Part shown: positions 155-10,668 of the stretch, piece by piece
Numbering within the stretch: the stretch's first letter is position 1
Layout: the number at the start of each line of letters is the position of its first letter
Assembly (NCBI GenBank): GCA_025355505.1
Contig: JANXZM010000001.1
Coordinates: 1-50,933, forward strand
DNA length: 50,933 nucleotides
From: Acidobacteriaceae bacterium
GTDB lineage: Bacteria > Acidobacteriota > Terriglobia > Terriglobales > Acidobacteriaceae
Reading direction: 5' to 3'
Position numbers and translations under genes: made by a program
The notes under the pieces: generated by a model
Databases searched by the model: none
Told to the model about the DNA's origin: nothing
Seen by the model: the letters and a program-made list of their open reading frames with translations, nothing else

Positions 155-1297
155 ATGTTGAATGTCATCCCTCGGGATAAAATCGTAGTCATGGCTACTC
201 AGCCAATTCAGTCTGACGTCTTCCGACTTGATGGTCTCTTCCGGTCGGACAATCTTCCGACGCTGCGGCTGTTTCTTGAGATGTGGCCCGATTTGAAGCA
301 TCTTATCGAGCTCCGCACGCTTCAAATCCGCGCAATCGTCGATGCGAACGTGGTTCAAGGAGAGCTGAGGTGGAGACTTGGAAGCAGGGAGAATTCTCAG
401 GCTCGATCAGGTTTGGAAGAGGCGATCGACGCCGGCGTGCTTGTCCTTATCGCTCCCAACTTCCTGAGGGTCGAAATCGAGAAGTACCTTCCGGCAATAG
501 CTGATTCAACCGGCGCGGCCTTATTGGAAGTTGAACGGGAGTGGCAGCTTTTCCAGGCCAAGCTGCATTTTTATCAACCTTCTTCTCAGGTGGCTAACGG
601 TTTGGTCGCTGATCCGAAGGACTTACCCTACAAGCACGCGAGTGATGAGCTCTCGTTGCCCGTCTACACGCGCGACGCGCACCTGAAGAAGATGGGCGCA
701 CCCGTGGTGTGGGTCTGCATTGATGCAACGTGCCGTGACCATGCACGGGCAATGAGTGTCACGCTAGGCTTCACTGTTGGATCCACCTACACGGTGACGA
801 TCGGAGTCGAAGCGCTTCGGGCAGCAGTTCGAGGGGTTAAGAGTCTCTTCGACGGATTCCGCCGACAACCCGCCTGGCTCCAGCTTGCGATCTCTGGAAC
901 TCTGGCCGCGGTCGTGATCCACCCGAAGTCGCGCGCCAAGCTTTTGCAGGTGTGGAACTCCGCCTGTGTCACAGCAAGTCAAGTCAAGGGGCCTGTGTTA
1001 GAAGGGTTCGTGATCTTGATGCAACAAGTCGCGGCTGCGCAGTCTGACTCCGTAAAGACGCATCGGCAAATTCAGGCTGTACTCCCGCCGGCTCAGAAGG
1101 CGACCGCGATTGTCCATGCGAGAAGAATCTGTGTAGTCAGCGCGGCCCCAGTTCCCATTAAGGAGATTGTGCGGAGGATGCGGAATGAGGGTTACGTATC
1201 GCGAGCCAAAGATCCTGAAATGTACCTTCGGCGCGTGTTGCGAAAGAGCGGTCAATTTGTGGAACTGTCGCCTCGCATGTTCGCGCTGCGCGCCTAG
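155..1297 (+). CDS. PIN-domain protein with C-terminal winged helix
   Basis: The N-terminal half reads as a PIN-type ribonuclease domain. Four acidic positions fit the usual layout: D63 in IVDANV, E107 in RVEIEKYL, D156 in the ADPKDLPY stretch, and D174 in YTRDAHL, which is the typical late motif of the fold. A hydrophobic segment at about 241-256 could be a buried helix or a weak membrane contact. Residues about 318-379 look like a small winged-helix domain (PIKEIVRRMRNEGY followed by a LRRVLRKSGQF-like wing). PIN domains normally cleave RNA and often act as toxins, but this protein is much longer than a VapC toxin (about 130 aa) and no small antitoxin gene sits beside it. An ATG at 191 (MATQP) is an alternative start. 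It stands alone at the left of the integrase-bearing island. The fold assignment comes from motifs only; the function is unknown. Confidence 0.7.
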   Translation: MLNVIPRDKIVVMATQPIQSDVFRLDGLFRSDNLPTLRLFLEMWPDLKHLIELRTLQIRAIVDANVVQGELRWRLGSRENSQARSGLEEAIDAGVLVLIAPNFLRVEIEKYLPAIADSTGAALLEVEREWQLFQAKLHFYQPSSQVANGLVADPKDLPYKHASDELSLPVYTRDAHLKKMGAPVVWVCIDATCRDHARAMSVTLGFTVGSTYTVTIGVEALRAAVRGVKSLFDGFRRQPAWLQLAISGTLAAVVIHPKSRAKLLQVWNSACVTASQVKGPVLEGFVILMQQVAAAQSDSVKTHRQIQAVLPPAQKATAIVHARRICVVSAAPVPIKEIVRRMRNEGYVSRAKDPEMYLRRVLRKSGQFVELSPRMFALRA

Positions 1298-1609: not shown

Positions 1610-2602
1610 GTGTTTCCCAACGTTGAAGTACGCCACTTGCACGCAGTCATCGCCCTGGGCGAAGAGCTGAACTTCACCAAGGCTGCCCTGAGATTGCACC
1701 TCACCCAATCTGCGCTCAGCAGACAGATCACAGAGATCGAAAAACAGAATAGATTTCGCCTGTTCACTCGCGATAATCGACGGGTTGTCCGGGTAGAGCT
1801 TACCGACGCAGGACGAGTCTTCGTCGAAGAGGCTCGCTCTTCTCTGTTGCACATGGAACGGGCGGTTTATTTTGCCCGCACCGCCCATGACGGAGTAGAC
1901 AATATTTTGACCATTGGACACTCGCTTGATGCCGATCAATCCTGGATTTCGGCCATTCTTGCAGTTCGTCTGCCCCTGTACCCCACCCTTGGTATTCGAC
2001 TGATTAGTGAGTTCTCGACCGAGTTGGTTCGAAGTGTAATGTCAGGCGAACTGAATCTGGCGCTGGTGACGGCACCCTCGGAAGACCCTCAGATCACGGC
2101 CGTGCCATTTGCTTTGACGCCGCTGTATGCGGCTCTTCCAGAGACCCATGCGGCTGCCCAAAGGGAGCAAGTAGCGCTCCAGGATCTGGCGAAAGATGAA
2201 TGGATTCTCTTTGCACGGCGAGTTCAACCTGTCGTTCACGACGCGATCATAGACGCGGCTCAACGTGAGGGAATCACTCCCAAACACGCACACGACACCA
2301 TCACGTCTGAAGAAGCAATTCACTTGGTTTCTGAGCACGTTGGTGTAGCCATCGTAACCAAACCTATAGGCCTTGGCTTTCGCGTTGAGGGTGTGGTGCT
2401 AAAGCAGCTTTCTGACGCCTCATTATGCTTCCAAACGTGTGTAGTCATGAGATCAGACGACGATTCTCGATTGGCGAATGAATTCGTCCGGTCATTCCTC
2501 CGCAGATATTCTTACCAGCGCCGCCCACCGAGACCGATTGAATTGCCGCTGTCCTCGCGAGTCGTCAGCATGAAAAAAGCAAACCCTGCGCCGCGCCGTT
2601 GA
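1610..2602 (+). CDS. LysR-family transcriptional regulator
   Basis: The first 65 residues are a classic LysR helix-turn-helix: LHAVIALGEELNFTKAA, then LTQSALSRQI and a LFTRDNRR-type wing. Residues about 90-300 form the periplasmic-binding-protein-like effector domain (two-lobed; LALVTAPSEDP region). The length of 330 aa is only slightly above the family norm of about 300. The start is a GTG; a GGAG lies very close upstream, so the exact start is not firm. LysR proteins usually regulate a divergently transcribed neighbour, but here the upstream PIN-domain gene runs in the same direction. The target is therefore unclear and may lie outside the window or be the nuclease genes downstream, which end towards this gene. 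Confidence 0.93.
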   Translation: MFPNVEVRHLHAVIALGEELNFTKAALRLHLTQSALSRQITEIEKQNRFRLFTRDNRRVVRVELTDAGRVFVEEARSSLLHMERAVYFARTAHDGVDNILTIGHSLDADQSWISAILAVRLPLYPTLGIRLISEFSTELVRSVMSGELNLALVTAPSEDPQITAVPFALTPLYAALPETHAAAQREQVALQDLAKDEWILFARRVQPVVHDAIIDAAQREGITPKHAHDTITSEEAIHLVSEHVGVAIVTKPIGLGFRVEGVVLKQLSDASLCFQTCVVMRSDDDSRLANEFVRSFLRRYSYQRRPPRPIELPLSSRVVSMKKANPAPRR

Positions 2603-2750: not shown

Positions 2751-4022
2751 TTACTCTTCATCTTTCTCAGGAATCCGTATCCACTTTCCCTTCGTGCGCC
2801 TGACAAAGCGGCTAAACTGAACGATTGCGGCCTCGTCCATAGCGACGGACGTCTCTGGAGCAAGCGGGAAAGCATTTGCCTCAAAGTCATCAAGCGCTTT
2901 GATTATCTCCTTGGGATTGCTACCGGCAGGCGGCACATAGACGGTCTTGCCTTCGTATTTTGGCTTTCGTTGTTCTGAACCGTCGGGCGGCTTCATGTGC
3001 TTTTTCCAGAGCTGCGTCACGAGATACGAATCGTCATTGGGCGGGTACGCCGCAAAGCTGAACACTCCTTTTTTCTTTTCCTCCTCCGGCAACGCGTCGT
3101 AATACTGATCTAGCTGCTTCAAATCGGCCTTGAGATCATCCCCATGAACAAAACTTTGGTCCGCGCGAAGAAAAAGCGGGGCTGAGCGGACTTGCAGATC
3201 GTCGCGTGACGTGAAGACCATGCAGAACGGCAAATAGTAGAGATATGCGATGTCAGCTTTATTGCTTTTACGGTCACTGCCTATCTGGCTTGCAGCCATC
3301 CCCAGATAGAAAAATAGGTCCACGGTCAAGACATGCGTGACATACGGGGCATAGTCCCTTATTCTTGGCCGTCCTAACGTATTCCAGCGACCGATGATCT
3401 GTTCTCCCCAGTCGCCATATCCGATCGTTAGTTCCAACGCCATCCGAAGGACGGCCTCCTGATCGGGACCGTCAACAATGGCCTCAGCGAGTGCCTTGAT
3501 ATCCGCGAGTTCCTGCGGCTTTCCCGCTCTCTCATGTATACCCTTGAAACTGGCGGCCATTGCCTTAAGATCAATCGATTCCAATTCTCGACGCCATCTC
3601 TTAGCCATGCCTCGCTCTAGTTCAAGAAATTCGCCGTTTTGCCAGCGGTTGAAGGCTTCCTCTTCAGGAGACTGTTTGTAGATAATGCCGGTGGCTCCTC
3701 CTAGCGTCACGGGTTGGCCGCCACCCAAAATGGGGAATCCAATCATCTCGATCTTGCCTTTGCCCATCAGTTCGCCCCATATAAGTGTGAGGTGATGGAC
3801 ATTCGGATAAGCCTGCATATCGGGGCTCTTGTAAGCAATTTCACCGACTACCTGCTCGGACGTCTTACCCGCCCTTACCTCTTTCTCAAGGTCCGCCAAT
3901 GTTTCGATGTAAAACAGCGGAGTGATGTTGGACATGAAGAAATTGTCCATCCAGTGCGCCTGATCGGGATTGAGAGCCTGAAGGGTCGATTTGTCGAAAA
4001 TCAGGATTGGGCCTTGCGCCAT
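2751..4022 (-). CDS. Large PIN-like conserved hypothetical protein
   Basis: I do not recognise a named family. The start (PILIFDKSTLQAL, D10) matches the first strand and catalytic Asp of a PIN-like fold, and E40 follows in FYIETLADLEKE. Near residues 254-275 the pattern NKADIAYLYYLPF...FTSRDDL resembles the last PIN motifs, in which one Asp precedes a long helix and a final Asp follows a strand. About 210 residues, partly helical, are inserted between the two halves, including a VTLGGA-like stretch. The C-terminal 140 residues have no motif I can name. No signal peptide or membrane segment is visible. The gene lies 125 bp downstream of the PD-(D/E)XK-like gene on the same strand, so the two may be co-transcribed. 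A metal-dependent nuclease role is an inference from motif spacing. Confidence 0.6.
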   Translation of the reverse strand: MAQGPILIFDKSTLQALNPDQAHWMDNFFMSNITPLFYIETLADLEKEVRAGKTSEQVVGEIAYKSPDMQAYPNVHHLTLIWGELMGKGKIEMIGFPILGGGQPVTLGGATGIIYKQSPEEEAFNRWQNGEFLELERGMAKRWRRELESIDLKAMAASFKGIHERAGKPQELADIKALAEAIVDGPDQEAVLRMALELTIGYGDWGEQIIGRWNTLGRPRIRDYAPYVTHVLTVDLFFYLGMAASQIGSDRKSNKADIAYLYYLPFCMVFTSRDDLQVRSAPLFLRADQSFVHGDDLKADLKQLDQYYDALPEEEKKKGVFSFAAYPPNDDSYLVTQLWKKHMKPPDGSEQRKPKYEGKTVYVPPAGSNPKEIIKALDDFEANAFPLAPETSVAMDEAAIVQFSRFVRRTKGKWIRIPEKDEE

Positions 4023-4147
4023 TGACTCCGCCTCCCATCACCGTTTGTGCGGATGGGGACCAACTCACAAGTAGTGTCGCACTCGGTGTCGGCAAATTCC
4101 GCACGAAATGACGCCGGCAATAGGGAGGAAAGCAAAAAGCAAGGATG

Positions 4148-4804
4148 TTATGAGATCAATTGCTGCGGCTTGGAGAACAGTCCGGCCACCCATTTGGTCA
4201 GGTCCTGGCTCTGTAGTGCTGGAGTAGAGAGACGACGAAGATTGAGTCCGTGAGTTCCGACAGTGAACGGGGCGTAATCCATTGGCTGCGTGAAATCCAA
4301 CGTTCCCAACCCGACCCTCGCATCCAAGGGATGGGTTGAGATTGCCGAAGCCACCAGGCTCCTCAGTTCGGATGACAAGCCTGCGTAGGTGTTCTTTCCA
4401 GAGTTCTGCTCCCGCGCATCTACGACCACGACCACATAAGCGTAGACCTGCCAGAATCCCATCTGAGCGAGAAGATTCGCCTGCTGCGCGACTTTCTTAT
4501 ATTCCTGCAATTTGCTTGGGGTCCGATTGCGGAGTTGGTTGATGCCGAATTTTATTCTCTTCACCTGATAGGCGACCGCCTGCTCGGGACGACTACGGTC
4601 ACAGAGGAGGGCATCGATGTCACCCTTGAAGTTGCCTGGAGCTGTGTTCAGGAGCACCCGCTGTCTGTTTGCCATCCCTCGCGGCATACCCGCGAATTCG
4701 AAGAACTCGGTGCCCCAAAGCGGATCGGAGAGCAGCCGTTCCACGAGTTGGTCTTCGGGAATGTCCGCAATCGAATCGTGAGCTAGTCCAGTAGAACTCA
4801 TCAA
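4148..4804 (-). CDS. PD-(D/E)XK-like putative nuclease
   Basis: This 218-aa protein is not a recognised family, but residues 61-84 carry a pattern typical of the restriction-endonuclease-like fold: GDIDALL (D62/D64), about 15 residues, then AYQVKRIK with Q80-x-K82 in place of the usual E-x-K. An earlier Glu (E33 in GTEFFEF) sits where the first helix of the core often provides an acid. A strongly hydrophobic strand (YVVVVVDAR, about 123-131) follows a helix, again consistent with the fold. There is no membrane segment. It is the promoter-proximal member of a two-gene minus-strand unit with the PIN-like gene downstream, inside an integrase-bearing island. A DNA-cleaving defence role is inferred; a different Q-x-K protein is possible. 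Confidence 0.5.
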   Translation of the reverse strand: MMSSTGLAHDSIADIPEDQLVERLLSDPLWGTEFFEFAGMPRGMANRQRVLLNTAPGNFKGDIDALLCDRSRPEQAVAYQVKRIKFGINQLRNRTPSKLQEYKKVAQQANLLAQMGFWQVYAYVVVVVDAREQNSGKNTYAGLSSELRSLVASAISTHPLDARVGLGTLDFTQPMDYAPFTVGTHGLNLRRLSTPALQSQDLTKWVAGLFSKPQQLIS

Positions 4805-5006: not shown

Positions 5007-5297
5007 ATGTCTGAATTCGCTCGAAAACCAGCAGAGTCGTCCCACGCCTTCCACGCGATTTCCGGTCCTTCGACTGCGTCGTCGATTGATCTAGCCAGCG
5101 AGAAGCACTATTCGGTAATCGAGATCGCCAATCTCTGGGCGCTCAGCGAAAAGACCGTTCGCAAAATCTTCGAACGTGAACCAGGCGTGATTCACTGGTG
5201 TACAGAAGAAAAGTTGCACAAACGCGGATACCGGACGCTGCGGGTGCCTGAGACTGTTCTTTACCGCGTCCATCGAAAGTTACGCAGAGCTAGCTAA
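5007..5297 (+). CDS. Small HTH protein, excisionase-like
   Basis: The core YSVIEIANLWALSEKTVRKI is a MerR/Xis-type helix-turn-helix, followed by FEREPGVI and RGYRTLRVPETVLYRV, the usual wing of the small DNA-binding proteins that accompany integrases. At 96 aa it is the right size for an excisionase or recombination directionality factor. The first 30 residues are Ser/Ala-rich and look disordered. The gene runs towards the integrase gene; the two stop codons are only about 45 bp apart, so transcription of each converges on the other. No clear terminator separates them. The role in excision is inferred from the family resemblance and position; a plain regulator is possible. Confidence 0.72.
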   Translation: MSEFARKPAESSHAFHAISGPSTASSIDLASEKHYSVIEIANLWALSEKTVRKIFEREPGVIHWCTEEKLHKRGYRTLRVPETVLYRVHRKLRRAS

Positions 5298-5341: not shown

Positions 5342-6556
5342 TCAGGCGCTTTTCACACGCTTCGGTGATTTGCGTTTTGCCGTTTTGTTACCCGTGTCGA
5401 GCACATTCCAGGCTTTGCGAACGTTGGCGGCGAGCTGTTCCTGACGTGCCTTGACCCACGGAGCATAGTGCTTCTCGGTAATCTTAACGCTCTTATGCCC
5501 GAGCAGCATAGAGACCTGTTCCAGCGGCAGGCCGGCCAGCAGCATCTCAACCGCGAATGTGTCCCGAAACATGTGTGGATGACTTCTCTTCGACGACCCA
5601 TCTTCGCCTCGCAAGTCTGCTATTTTGAACAATCGGCGAAAACTGCGCTGCCAGTTACCGACCACGGATTTCGGCGAGCCGTTGCCAGACCAAAAGAAGT
5701 ACCGCGGATTCGGAGTTGGGCCTGGGGGAATTTCTCGCAGTGCCTCCGCCACATTAGGAGGCAGTGGAACGTAAACGGGGCTACCGGTTTTTGCGCGGTA
5801 CAGGAACAACTCCCCATTCTCGTTCAGCCGACGCCTTTCTAGAGTCACCGCATCTCTGATTGCGAGTCCGCTCCAGCGCATCAGTAACGTGAGAATGCGG
5901 AGGCGTGTCGCTTGGTTTCGGCATTCCACCCACCCTCTGGGCTGATAGATGTAGGTTGCGTCGATGATTTTGTCGAACTCGGACGCAGGAAAGTAATCCG
6001 TAGGAGGACCATCGGCTCTTATTCGCCCCAGCAGAACAGCGGGATTGGACTTGATCGAGCCGAGGCGCAAGCAGTGGTAGAAGAATCCAATCAACCGTTC
6101 TTGTTTCTTTTTCTTCGCAAGAGGGCCATCGGTCCAATTATCGCGAAAGCCTTCCAGATCGGCAGTCGTGATCTCAGTGATGTGTGTGAACCCGCAGGAA
6201 GTGGCCCAAGCCAAGAACTGCTTCTCGAAAATGGTGGTCAGCTTATCGAGAGTCGAGTCGGCCAGATTCTCGTTGCGCTTGCTGTTTAGAAATCGTGCCA
6301 CCGCCTCTTTGACAGTAACAAGAGTCGGCTCGGGTCGAGAGGGCTCTTTTAGTCCTTTCTCCTTCGCCTCATATTCCTCTTCCAACTTGTGTTTGAAGTC
6401 TTCGGCTTTTTCCCAACTGCGGGTTCTGGCGCTGCGACGGATGAATGGACCATCAGACCCGAGTACACCGTTTATCCACTTGGGGCAGCGGCAGCGCTTG
6501 TAGTTGAGGTCGCTGGATGGGCAGGGAGGATAGTGACGGGAATAAACAGACAGCAT
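5342..6556 (-). CDS. Tyrosine site-specific integrase
   Basis: A full tyrosine recombinase. The catalytic set is visible: R234 (LAIRDAV), K256 (RAKTGSP, the beta-hairpin lysine), H328-x-x-R331 (HMFRDT), H354 (LLGHKS) and the nucleophile Y364 (KHYAPW). Residues about 80-170 form the SAM-like core-binding domain. The N-terminus (H8, C12, C22, C24; CPSSDLNYKRCRCPKW) looks like a small zinc-binding arm domain. Its start is about 90 bp from the 3' end of ssrA and it reads away from it, the standard layout for an element inserted in a tmRNA gene. All catalytic residues are intact, so the element may still be mobile. Two TACAAT-like -10 boxes overlap a direct repeat just upstream. Confidence 0.95.
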   Translation of the reverse strand: MLSVYSRHYPPCPSSDLNYKRCRCPKWINGVLGSDGPFIRRSARTRSWEKAEDFKHKLEEEYEAKEKGLKEPSRPEPTLVTVKEAVARFLNSKRNENLADSTLDKLTTIFEKQFLAWATSCGFTHITEITTADLEGFRDNWTDGPLAKKKKQERLIGFFYHCLRLGSIKSNPAVLLGRIRADGPPTDYFPASEFDKIIDATYIYQPRGWVECRNQATRLRILTLLMRWSGLAIRDAVTLERRRLNENGELFLYRAKTGSPVYVPLPPNVAEALREIPPGPTPNPRYFFWSGNGSPKSVVGNWQRSFRRLFKIADLRGEDGSSKRSHPHMFRDTFAVEMLLAGLPLEQVSMLLGHKSVKITEKHYAPWVKARQEQLAANVRKAWNVLDTGNKTAKRKSPKRVKSA

Positions 6557-6645: not shown

Positions 6646-7013
6646 TGGTGGAGGCGGCGGGAGTCGAACCCGCGTCCGAAAATGTTACTGGTCAAGAGAC
6701 TACATGCTTATTCCAGTTCATGCCCTGGGCATTACCCCAGGACGTTCGCGACGGCTGCTCAGAACGGACAAGAAACAGTCGGCGCTAGCCTGAAATCTTA
6801 GCTCCCCTGCCCAGACGTAGCAGAGAAGAGCAGCCCGCTGTGTGACGTTCGCTCGCAGCCCACGGGCAAAGCTGCGGAGAACGGCGGCCTAACTAATTAG
6901 GCTGCGTATGCCATCTGTTGATTGGCAATTATCATTTTGCACGCGATTACGGGTGTATGCACCCCGGCATGCCTCTTGGCCGCAAGCATCTCCGTCGAAG
7001 CCGTGACGCCCCC
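6646..7013 (-). ncRNA. ssrA: Transfer-messenger RNA (tmRNA)
   Basis: One-piece tmRNA of 368 nt on the minus strand. The 5' end reads GGGGGCGTCACGGCTTCGACGG and the 3' end carries the T-arm GGTTCGACTCCCGC and terminal CCA. The ends pair in a 7-bp acceptor stem with a G3:U wobble, the alanine identity element. The tag reading frame is at 6897-6926 on the minus strand and gives ANQQMAYAA followed by TAA; the final Ala-Ala is the usual protease signal. tmRNA rescues ribosomes stalled on broken messages by adding this tag. The 3' end is the probable attachment site of the adjoining island, which leaves the RNA intact. Confidence 0.96.
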
Positions 7014-7699: not shown

Positions 7700-8881
7700 T
7701 TGACTTCTCTGGAGAACGGTTCTACCATTGCCGCTCGACGGGCGGGGGGCCCTCTTCCACTGATCAATCACACCATCTCGCACTATCGCATCATCGAGAA
7801 ACTGGGCGGCGGCGGGATGGGCGTGGTATACAAGGCGGAAGACACGCGCCTGCGCCGCTTCGTTGCCTTAAAATTCCTTCCTGAAGACGTCGCCAAAGAC
7901 CCACAATCGTTGAGCCGATTCGAGCGGGAAGCGCAGGCTGCTTCCGCCCTCAACCATCCCAACATCTGCACGATCCACGACATTGGCGAGCACGAGGGGC
8001 GGGCATTCATTGCCATGGAATACCTGGATGGGGTGACGCTGAAGCACCTCATTGCCGGGCGTCCGCTGGAGACCGAGCAGTTATTGTCGTTGGGTATCGA
8101 GATTGCCGATGCGCTGGATGCGGCGCACGCGGAAGGCATCGTGCACCGCGACATCAAACCGGCGAATATCTTTGTGACCAAGCGCGGGCACGCGAAGGTT
8201 CTCGACTTCGGGCTGGCGAAGGTCTCGGGGCAGCCGACACGGGCCGAGAAAGAGGGGGCCACTATGGCTACCCTCGACGAGCAACATCTGACCAGTCCGG
8301 GGACGGCGCTGGGCACGGTGGCTTATATGTCGCCGGAGCAGGCCAAGGGAAAAGAACTCGACCCGCGCAGCGATCTGTTCTCGTTTGGAGCGGTGTTGTA
8401 TGAGATGGCGACGGGGACGCTGCCGTTCCGGGGAGACACGTCGGCGGTAATTTTTCACGCGATCCTGGAGCGGGCGCCGACGGCTCCGATTCGATTGAAT
8501 CCGGATGTTCCGCCGGAGCTGGAACGGATTATCAACCGGGCGCTGGAGAAGGACCGGGAACTGCGATACCAGCATGCGTCGGAGATGCGGGCCGAGCTGC
8601 AGCGGCTGAAGCGGGATTCGGAGTCGGGGAAGAGGATTGTGGCGCAGGATGCGCCGGAGGCTGAGGGCCAGGGTTCTTCGCAACCATCGAGTCAACCATC
8701 GAGTCCGCCGTCAAGCCAACGATCGAGCGGCAAGGCTGAAGCCGTGCCCTCGTCGGTGTCGACGTCGCGGGCGGGGGCGCCCGCGCCACACGAGCCTGCC
8801 GAGTTGCGCTCGACTGTCCCTACGGGGGCTTTGGTGGCGGCCGGACTTCTTCTGGTGGCGATGATTGCCGGCGGGTTTTAG
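7700..8881 (+). CDS. Ser/Thr protein kinase, PknB type (N-terminal part of split gene)
   Basis: Residues about 28-300 are a complete Hanks-type kinase: glycine loop [19 protein letters not shown] with the ATP lysine, HRDIKPANI catalytic loop, DFGLAKV, and the [10 protein letters not shown] activation segment end. A Ser/Pro/Gln-rich linker follows, encoded by four 12-bp near-repeats (8681-8728), then a membrane segment ([15 protein letters not shown]) that ends at a TAG at 8879-8881. The normal C-terminal half of this protein type lies directly downstream in another frame, so this is probably the front of a broken gene. The kinase itself is intact and membrane-bound and could still work. The start is a TTG; no ATG is available before the kinase domain. 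Confidence 0.88.
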
Positions 8882-10668
8882 CGGATTTCGTCAACACTAC
8901 GGGCGATCCGGTATTCGACGGGACACTGAAGCAGGCGCTGGCAGTGCAGCTTGAGCAATCGCCGTATCTGAACATCGTGCCCGATCAGACGATCCGCAAG
9001 GCGCTGCAGTTCATGGGGCGCTCAGCAGACGAGCGGGTCACAGGCAGCGTGGCGCGGGAGGTTTGCGAGCGGGAGAACATCAAGGCGATGCTGAGCGGCT
9101 CGATTGCTGCACTCGGCAGCCAGTACGTCGTGGCGCTCGACGCCACCAACTGCGCCACCGGCGATTCACTCGCCCGCGAGCAGGTGACGGCGGCGACCAA
9201 AGAGGCCGTGCTCCCGGCGGTGGGTAAGGCGGCGTCAAGCTTGCGGGCAAAGCTGGGCGAGTCGTTGGCTTCGATTCAGAAGTTCGACACGCCGGTGACC
9301 GAGGCGACAACCTCGTCGCTGGAAGCGTTGAAGGCTTACGCGGCGGCCGACGAGATGCGCAATGGCGGAGGCGAAACCGAATCCATTCCTCTGTTTCAGC
9401 ACGCCGTCGAGTTGGACCCGAATTTTGCCTTGGCCTATGCGCGCCTGGCGGCCATTTACAGCAATGTTGGGGAAGAGGATCGAGAGTTGGAAGCTGCGAA
9501 GAAGGCCTTTGACCTGCGGGAGCGGGTGAGCGAACGCGAGAGGTACTACATCGCCGTGCACTACTACTTTGCGACGGGAGACATAGAGAAAGTAAAGGAA
9601 ACCCTGGAACTGGCCACCAAGGCGTATCCGAATGACTCGACCGCCTTCGGCAACCTAGCACTGGTTTACAACCTTTTTTACGGCCAGTTTGAGAAGGCGA
9701 TACCAATGGCGAACGAATCTTCCCGCCTGGAGCCCGTGTCGCCGTATGGCTACCTGCACACTGCACTAGCGTACATGGCGCTGAACCGGCTGGAGGAAGC
9801 ACGGTCCATCCTGCAACGGGCAGTCGATGCCAAAGCGGATAACCTGTTCATCCACCAGTTGCTGTACGATCTGGCTCTCTTGAATGGCGATGCCGGCGGA
9901 ATGCAACGACAACTGAAGTGGTCAGAGGGGAAACCCAGCGAATACTTATTGCTTAACGAAGCAACCAGTGCGGCTGCGGCGCACGGGCAAATGCAGAAGG
10001 CTGGGGAATTGATGGAGCGGTCGGTGCAAGTGAGCGAGCGCTTGGGTTTCAAGGGAACGACAGCGGCTACCCAAGCAAACTGGGCGGTGACGCAGGTGGA
10101 AGTGGGGAATGCTTCGAAGGCGCGAGAGCTGGCAGCGTCAAGCTCCGCCTTAGCGCATGGCCGGGGCAACCTGGGGTCGGTGGCCGTGGCGTTGGCGATG
10201 ACCGGAGATGTGGGTCGCGCCCAGGCCATTGCGGACGACCTGGGTCACCGCTTTCCAGACGACACGATCTTGCACCAGGTAAGCATTCCCGGAGTGCGAG
10301 CGTTAATCGAGTTGAATCGGAAGTCTCCAGATGCGGCCATCCAGGCACTGCAGCCAGCTACGCCCTACGAATTGGGCACCGCCCAGGGATTTTTTCCCAT
10401 TTACGTTCGCGGCCAGGCATACCTGCAGGCGAAGCGTGGGACGGAGGCGGCTGCGGAGTTTCAGAAGATCGTGGACCATCGCGGCATCGCTCCGACGGCG
10501 CTCGAACGTTCGCTGGCCAAGCTTGGCCTGGGGCGGGCGTATGTGCTGACCGGAGATGCGGCAAAAGCCAGAGCTGCGTATCAGGATTTCTTTGCGATGT
10601 GGAAGGATGCCGACCCGGACGTGCCCGTTCTTAAAGAAGCGAAGGCGGAGTACGAGCATCTGCGTTAG
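8878..10668 (+). pseudogene. TPR sensor half of the split Ser/Thr kinase
   Basis: From 8878 the frame encodes [17 protein letters not shown], the juxtamembrane start of the extracytoplasmic domain of kinase-TPR proteins, with no stop codon between it and the kinase stop, which overlaps it. Next comes an alpha/beta region (about 25-120), then a long run of TPR-like helices from about residue 150 to the end (LFQHAVELDPNFALAYARLAAIY, KAYPNDSTAFGNLALVY and others). The only start inside is a GTG at 8944, which would lack the first 22 codons and has no clear ribosome site, so independent translation is doubtful. The rest of the frame is undamaged over 570 codons, which points to a recent break or a sequence error at 8876-8881. 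Confidence 0.75.

Follow-up and report, generated by a model that had tools for sequence, protein, structure and literature searches.

Among described systems, the one nearest to the protein reported here is DS-3 (DefensePredictor, PMC13092281). It consists of one protein with a split PIN domain, defends E. coli against phage only with its catalytic residues intact, has no antitoxin and was proposed to be auto-inhibited. P423, a predicted protein of 423 aa encoded on a genomic island of an Acidobacteriaceae bacterium, is like DS-3 a single protein whose PIN domain appears to be split between N- and C-terminal parts, a likeness of architecture, and the P423 DNA gave no blastn match to 20,395 E. 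coli records. VapC toxins share the PIN core with P423 (Z 6.6 for 3zvk, with 125 residues covered, and Z 7.6 for 5h4h, with 138), but they are about 130 aa long against 423 aa, and the insert of about 180 residues in the PIN core and the lack of a shared partner gene set P423 apart. The best structural matches were to the PIN domain of SMG6/EST1A (2hwx, 2hww and 2dok; Z 7.8–8.4), a eukaryotic mRNA-decay factor, at 6–7 % identity, and the fold is also shared with protein-only RNase P (8ssg and 7e8j; Z 5.4–5.7; 11–12 % identity), although there is no sign of a tRNA-processing role for P423. No report of the P423 family was found in the literature searched, and we know of no biochemistry for any of its members. 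Our working interpretation, to which we would give a probability of roughly 0.6, is that P423 is a self-contained, mobile, metal-dependent split-PIN endoribonuclease for anti-phage defence, and that the product of the adjoining gene, P218, is separate cargo.

The window, by which we mean the whole stretch of 50,933 nt that was analysed, carries the following features at and around the two genes:

155–1297, plus strand: protein of 380 aa whose residues 61–184 form a second PIN-like domain (PIN_2, E 0.0008; its 20.1 bits fall below the Pfam cut-off of 22.4 bits)
1610–2602, plus strand: LysR-type regulator, convergent neighbour (Pfam, 2.1e-27 and 5.7e-17)
2751–4022, minus strand: P423, predicted split-PIN protein of 423 aa, with PIN core at residues 1–47 and ~226–310, insert at ~48–225 and C-terminal extension at 311–423 (boundaries set by eye, guided by the secondary structure and the ranges of the matches)
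4023–4147, no strand: gap of 125 bp between P218 and P423, with no minus-strand terminator-like site
4148–4801, minus strand: P218, putative PD-(D/E)XK protein of 217 aa, with GDID at 60–63 and QVK at 79–81
5007–5297, plus strand: 96-aa putative helix-turn-helix protein, possibly excisionase-like (phrog_2655 excisionase, E 0.038, and weak HTH matches)
5342–6556, minus strand: tyrosine recombinase (integrase) of the island (Pfam Phage_integrase, E 7.3e-18)
6646–7013, minus strand: tmRNA (ssrA) gene, the 3' end of which is the right edge of the island (ARAGORN)

An earlier, sequence-only reading had located the two genes on a mobile island, and the tyrosine recombinase that lies next to the 3' end of the tmRNA gene, the arrangement of an ssrA-integrated island, bears this out. 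The left edge of the island lies outside our view, base 1 of the window being also base 1 of its contig (C44). A search for the far edge with the tmRNA 3'-end repeat turned up nothing better than a partial and doubtful match where contig C110 begins. Bases 1–45 of that contig (G000; L053) resemble the tmRNA 3' end (20 bases compared, 2 of them mismatched); a long ORF follows, primase/helicase-like on visual inspection, and the stretch may belong to another element or mark an island end. The island may also carry two PIN proteins, namely P423 and the 380-aa protein at 155–1297. The coordinates and strand first assigned to the two ORFs proved correct, as did their placement on the same strand with 125 bp between them, and both ORFs are real. 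Neither appears to be a chance frame: comparison of P423 with its nearest relative (82 % identical) gave dN of ~0.10 and dS of ~1.5–1.9, values that also place the gene under purifying selection, and P218 has a 51.7 % identical relative in another genome, with identity lower at third codon positions (0.59, 0.68 and 0.34 at the first, second and third). The P218 ORF spans 4148–4804 when read from TTG (218 aa), but as this TTG directly precedes an ATG at 4801, the latter (217 aa) is the likelier start; the motifs quoted in the earlier reading are present, and in ATG numbering its P218 residues become D61, D63, Q79 and K81. The two genes may share one transcript, a search of the 4023–4147 gap having found no minus-strand terminator-like site.

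The proposal that P423 is PIN-like, made originally from D10, D257 and a long insert, is upheld by a structural model, a run of PIN matches and the conservation of acidic residues. The model was built with AlphaFold from an alignment (A1) of P423 with 17 of 18 loci found among genome contigs, which omits the broken locus L030 and takes in no relatives from whole-genome searches, and it had a mean pLDDT of 86.4 and a pTM of 0.86. When the 999 top-ranked Foldseek chains were structurally re-aligned with it, the first 32 of the best 50 rows were PIN proteins, with Z running from 8.4 down to 5.2 (a VapC) and model ranges from about 1 to 344. These rows include human SMG6, VapC toxins, FitB and protein-only RNase P, as well as pre-ribosome/ribosome-assembly, exosome, Nmd4 and some archaeal rows that we take to be PIN proteins. 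The top match, to SMG6 (rmsd 3.3, 135 residues aligned), had a Z of 8.4, which is close to the 7–8 that the tool calls typical of models without a clear match, and the first row after the 32, an unrelated enzyme, had a Z of 3.7. Because plain Foldseek searches with the model gave nothing significant against either the PDB (best PIN row, E 1.3) or viral models, we base the PIN call on the unbroken series of PIN rows in combination with the acidic residues. All 18 sequences have D10, E40, D44, D257 and D274, the first three lying within residues 1–47 of the split core and the last two within ~226–310, some 180 aa further on. A canonical PIN pattern consists of three to four conserved acidic residues, and P423 shows it in D10, E40, D257 and D274. 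Six residues of the insert (W127, F132, E136, W143, R144 and W213) are likewise invariant (18/18). Judged by the model, P423 is a PIN-fold protein. No Pfam, NCBIfam, PHROGs or PADLOC model matched P423 at E 1, a PDB sequence search with A1 found no match, and the 18 aligned members gave only weak matches in Pfam, none of them to a PIN model; P423 would represent a PIN family absent from these four collections.

Relatives of P423 were found at 29 places besides the window, counting overlapping records once and omitting a weak 77-residue match in one genome (G036). At least 18 loci lie among genome contigs, a number to be read as a lower bound since they were found through exact short peptides, and the bins concerned are assigned to Acidobacteriota, Parcubacteria-type and other groups, with one record titled Lokiarchaeota. 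In a further record, titled Cyanobacteria, the copy lies in three pieces and the label or the bin is doubtful (L030). Within the phylum, 9 of 396 genomes matched P423, its own included, and six of these nine matches were shortened or interrupted, which fits the turnover of an accessory gene but also fits a weak benefit; within the genus the figure was 3 of 24, again counting its own. Three viral contigs carry relatives that were detected with the A1 alignment as query, P423 alone giving no match to viral contigs. On one of them (L056) phage terminase and portal genes lie ~1.3 kb upstream of the relative; on another (L055) it is ~4 kb from a Zot-like phage gene, and on the third (L054) it adjoins a gene for a tail-sheath-like protein. 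The stretch 1911–7230 of L056, where the relative follows the terminase and portal genes, is a likely cargo position. A search of plasmids gave one broken copy, a fragment on a Granulicella tundricola plasmid, and a search of phage genomes with one P423 relative as query gave no match. In a tree of 25 rows, from which broken copies other than the shortened L028 and L029 were excluded and in which the L042 row has an extended start and L029 and L056 form long branches, the three congeneric copies fell on three different supported branches, and one of them grouped with a viral contig (100/100); L018, L019 and L020 are near copies that were counted separately. This branching order points to horizontal spread of P423, which is patchy and widespread and appears to travel on its own.

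At one locus (L013), direct repeats at 7858–7943 and 9292–9378 flank the P423 relative, which lies between a gene for a 373-aa protein and an AbiEii-like gene. One pair of repeats is 68 nt long and 90 % alike, the other 24 nt long and 88 % alike; together they span ~86 nt and are a sign of cassette-like insertion or recombination; as they differ by ~10 %, import by recombination from a related locus would fit better than a fresh target-site duplication. Such repeats, and the very varied neighbours of P423, are what would be expected if P423 were a selfish enzyme of a mobile element, or one that processes RNA, and took no part in defence. We regard this explanation as unlikely, since flanking direct repeats were absent from the stretches searched around the copies in the window, L014 and L016, the patchy distribution (3 of 24 congeners) speaks against a housekeeping function, and defence genes recur near P423, as discussed below.

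PIN toxins are common on islands, and the structures that match the P423 fold best include VapC toxins, which together favour the view that P423 is the toxin of a VapBC-type toxin–antitoxin pair, with P218 or another neighbour as antitoxin. A toxin of this type should have a partner. Around 30 copies of P423, the window included, we compared every ORF of 25 aa or longer lying no more than 1 kb away, 832 in all; shared neighbours (E 1e-3) were seen only between the near-identical loci L018, L019 and L020, with the reservation that for five copies one flank is shorter than 1 kb and that very diverged antitoxins could escape such a comparison. A conserved antitoxin adjoining P423 was looked for among these ORFs and none was found. 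The absence of a shared neighbour outside the near-identical loci, a length about three times that of the matched VapC chains and the lack of any antitoxin-like match for P218 make a VapBC-type pair quite improbable.

The same comparisons bear on the possibility that P218 and P423 work together. The sequence-only reading had proposed a two-gene unit representing a possible new nuclease system, and had staked this in advance on conservation of the gene pair elsewhere; the pair was found nowhere else in the DNA searched, and the proposal is therefore not supported. Searches of the flanking DNA of the 29 other P423 places with P218 (tblastn), covering from well under 1 kb to ~10 kb per side, gave no match, nor did a search of 19 whole P423-bearing genomes with the P218 alignment (E 0.05), a search run without a positive control although the same alignment finds the window copy and one relative (in G1039) elsewhere. 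Conversely, P423 was found in neither of the two genomes that carry P218 relatives (G1039 and G528). Co-occurrence across genomes, which had been suggested as a check by profile search, thus stands at 0 of 29 places, 0 of 19 P423 genomes and 0 of 2 P218-relative genomes. It could still be argued that within this particular island the two proteins form a working two-nuclease defence module in which, for example, P218 senses or nicks foreign DNA and P423 cuts RNA. The genes lie on the same strand, 125 bp apart and with no terminator-like site between them, and three other copies of P423 are directly downstream of a same-strand nuclease-type gene: by Pfam, Mrr at L016 (146 bp) and type IIG at L028 (142 bp), and at L013 (65 bp) the gene for the 373-aa protein, in which a PD-(D/E)XK-looking motif was recognized by eye and which has no Pfam match. 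However, with P218 beside none of the 29 other copies and in none of the 19 genomes, with P423 missing from both genomes that have a P218 relative, and with the upstream genes of different loci dissimilar at E 1e-3 (the near-identical three apart), we consider such a module rather unlikely. P423 appears to be autonomous, P218 is not needed by the P423 family, and P218, a rare neighbour of P423, is probably cargo in its own right on the ssrA-integrated island that both share.

P218 itself probably belongs to the PD-(D/E)XK nucleases or is restriction-like. The pattern D ... (D/E/Q)xK is the motif of the PD-(D/E)XK family, within which Q in place of E is known from enzymes such as the Mrr type. 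P218 and its two relatives share E16, G60, D61, D63 and K81-R-I-K, with a GD(I/V)D motif; position 79 is Q in two of them and E in the third. The order of the likely helices and strands in P218 fits a PD-(D/E)XK core by eye. P218 is thus like Mrr and other PD-(D/E)XK nucleases in its GD(I/V)D ... (Q/E)xK motif, but it gave no profile or structural match to them: family libraries contained no confirming profile, a PDB sequence search found nothing relevant and a single-sequence model reached a pLDDT of only 35. Accordingly, of the claim that P218 is PD-(D/E)XK-like, the motif, seen in all three sequences, stands, whereas library searches, PDB sequences and modelling have added nothing to it, and for this reason we hold membership of the PD-(D/E)XK family to be likely and go no further.

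The only P218 relatives accepted were those of G1039 (51.7 % identity) and G528 (~27 %). A search of 396 genomes returned only its own copy, 399 genomes returned its own copy and that of G1039, and among 300 genomes of the family 55 had a match at E 1, of which, besides the window, only that of G528 (1.8e-6) was accepted; two short weak matches among 297 genomes from elsewhere were not accepted. No relative was found in plasmids, also with the G528 relative as query, in phages, for which the G528 relative was the sole query, or in viral contigs. In G1039, judged by eye, the relative adjoins a methyltransferase-like fragment, with core-metabolism-like genes at least 1 kb further away. In G528 a neighbouring gene product matches Nmad3, a nucleotide-modification-associated domain; here the relative lies between the Nmad3 gene and a gene for a 439-aa protein without a Pfam match (L041, 4776–7817), possibly a cluster related to modified DNA.

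A defence gene was recognized within ~3.5 kb of P423, by Pfam and PADLOC, at 6 of 20 loci examined: type IIG at L028, a type I HsdR-like gene at L026, Mrr at L016, a CBASS-type cyclase at L013, AbiEii at L024 and a QatD-like gene at L019. No defence gene was named at the other 14. The scan covered 79 of 108 listed proteins from these loci, short or doubtful ORFs having been omitted by eye, and its PADLOC matches were taken from the best 25 of 169 families. Its ORFs came from a simple longest-ORF script and not from a gene finder, and a 949-aa ORF at L016 is absent from the list, apparently owing to masked bases. As a loose control we scanned all 60 proteins from 14 regions (of 15 drawn) of three genomes, and these matched 14 PADLOC families at 1e-5, among them mad2, mad3, mad8, PDC-S01, pVip, a type II nicking endonuclease (1e-13) and a single, weaker QatD match (1.2e-23). 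Because the control also gave QatD, L019 is the weakest of the six cases. Restriction, CBASS or Abi genes are near P423 at 5 or more of the 20 loci. Because the control itself yielded 14 families, we treat the association with defence genes as a suggestive trend and not as a test. The nuclease-type genes upstream of some copies could be accommodated in another way, with P423 as a mobile, autoinhibited split-PIN effector that is plugged in downstream of varied DNA-targeting nucleases or Abi genes and provides an RNA-cutting fallback once DNA-level defence is engaged or failing; P218 in the window, Mrr at L016, type IIG at L028 and, at L013, the 373-aa gene that precedes AbiEii would be examples. 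We think it very doubtful that this arrangement applies.

Returning to the reading that we prefer, in which P423 acts alone, its role is probably anti-phage, by analogy. Beyond the fold of P423, every step of the mechanism outlined here is one that we infer. The two half-domains (residues 1–47 and ~226–310) would fold into one active site comprising D10, E40, D257 and D274, with D44 nearby, assembled around the mostly helical insert of ~180 residues, and the protein would then cut RNA. The insert and the C-terminal extension may hold the enzyme inactive until it is triggered, for instance by phage infection, and the benefit to the island would be anti-phage defence through the cutting of tRNA or mRNA.

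What stays of interest is therefore P423 itself, an uncatalogued and widely spread split-PIN family. If it is defensive, the recently described type of system with a single split-PIN protein would occur far beyond E. coli, and the invariant residues of its insert would offer a handle on how a nuclease may be restrained without an antitoxin.
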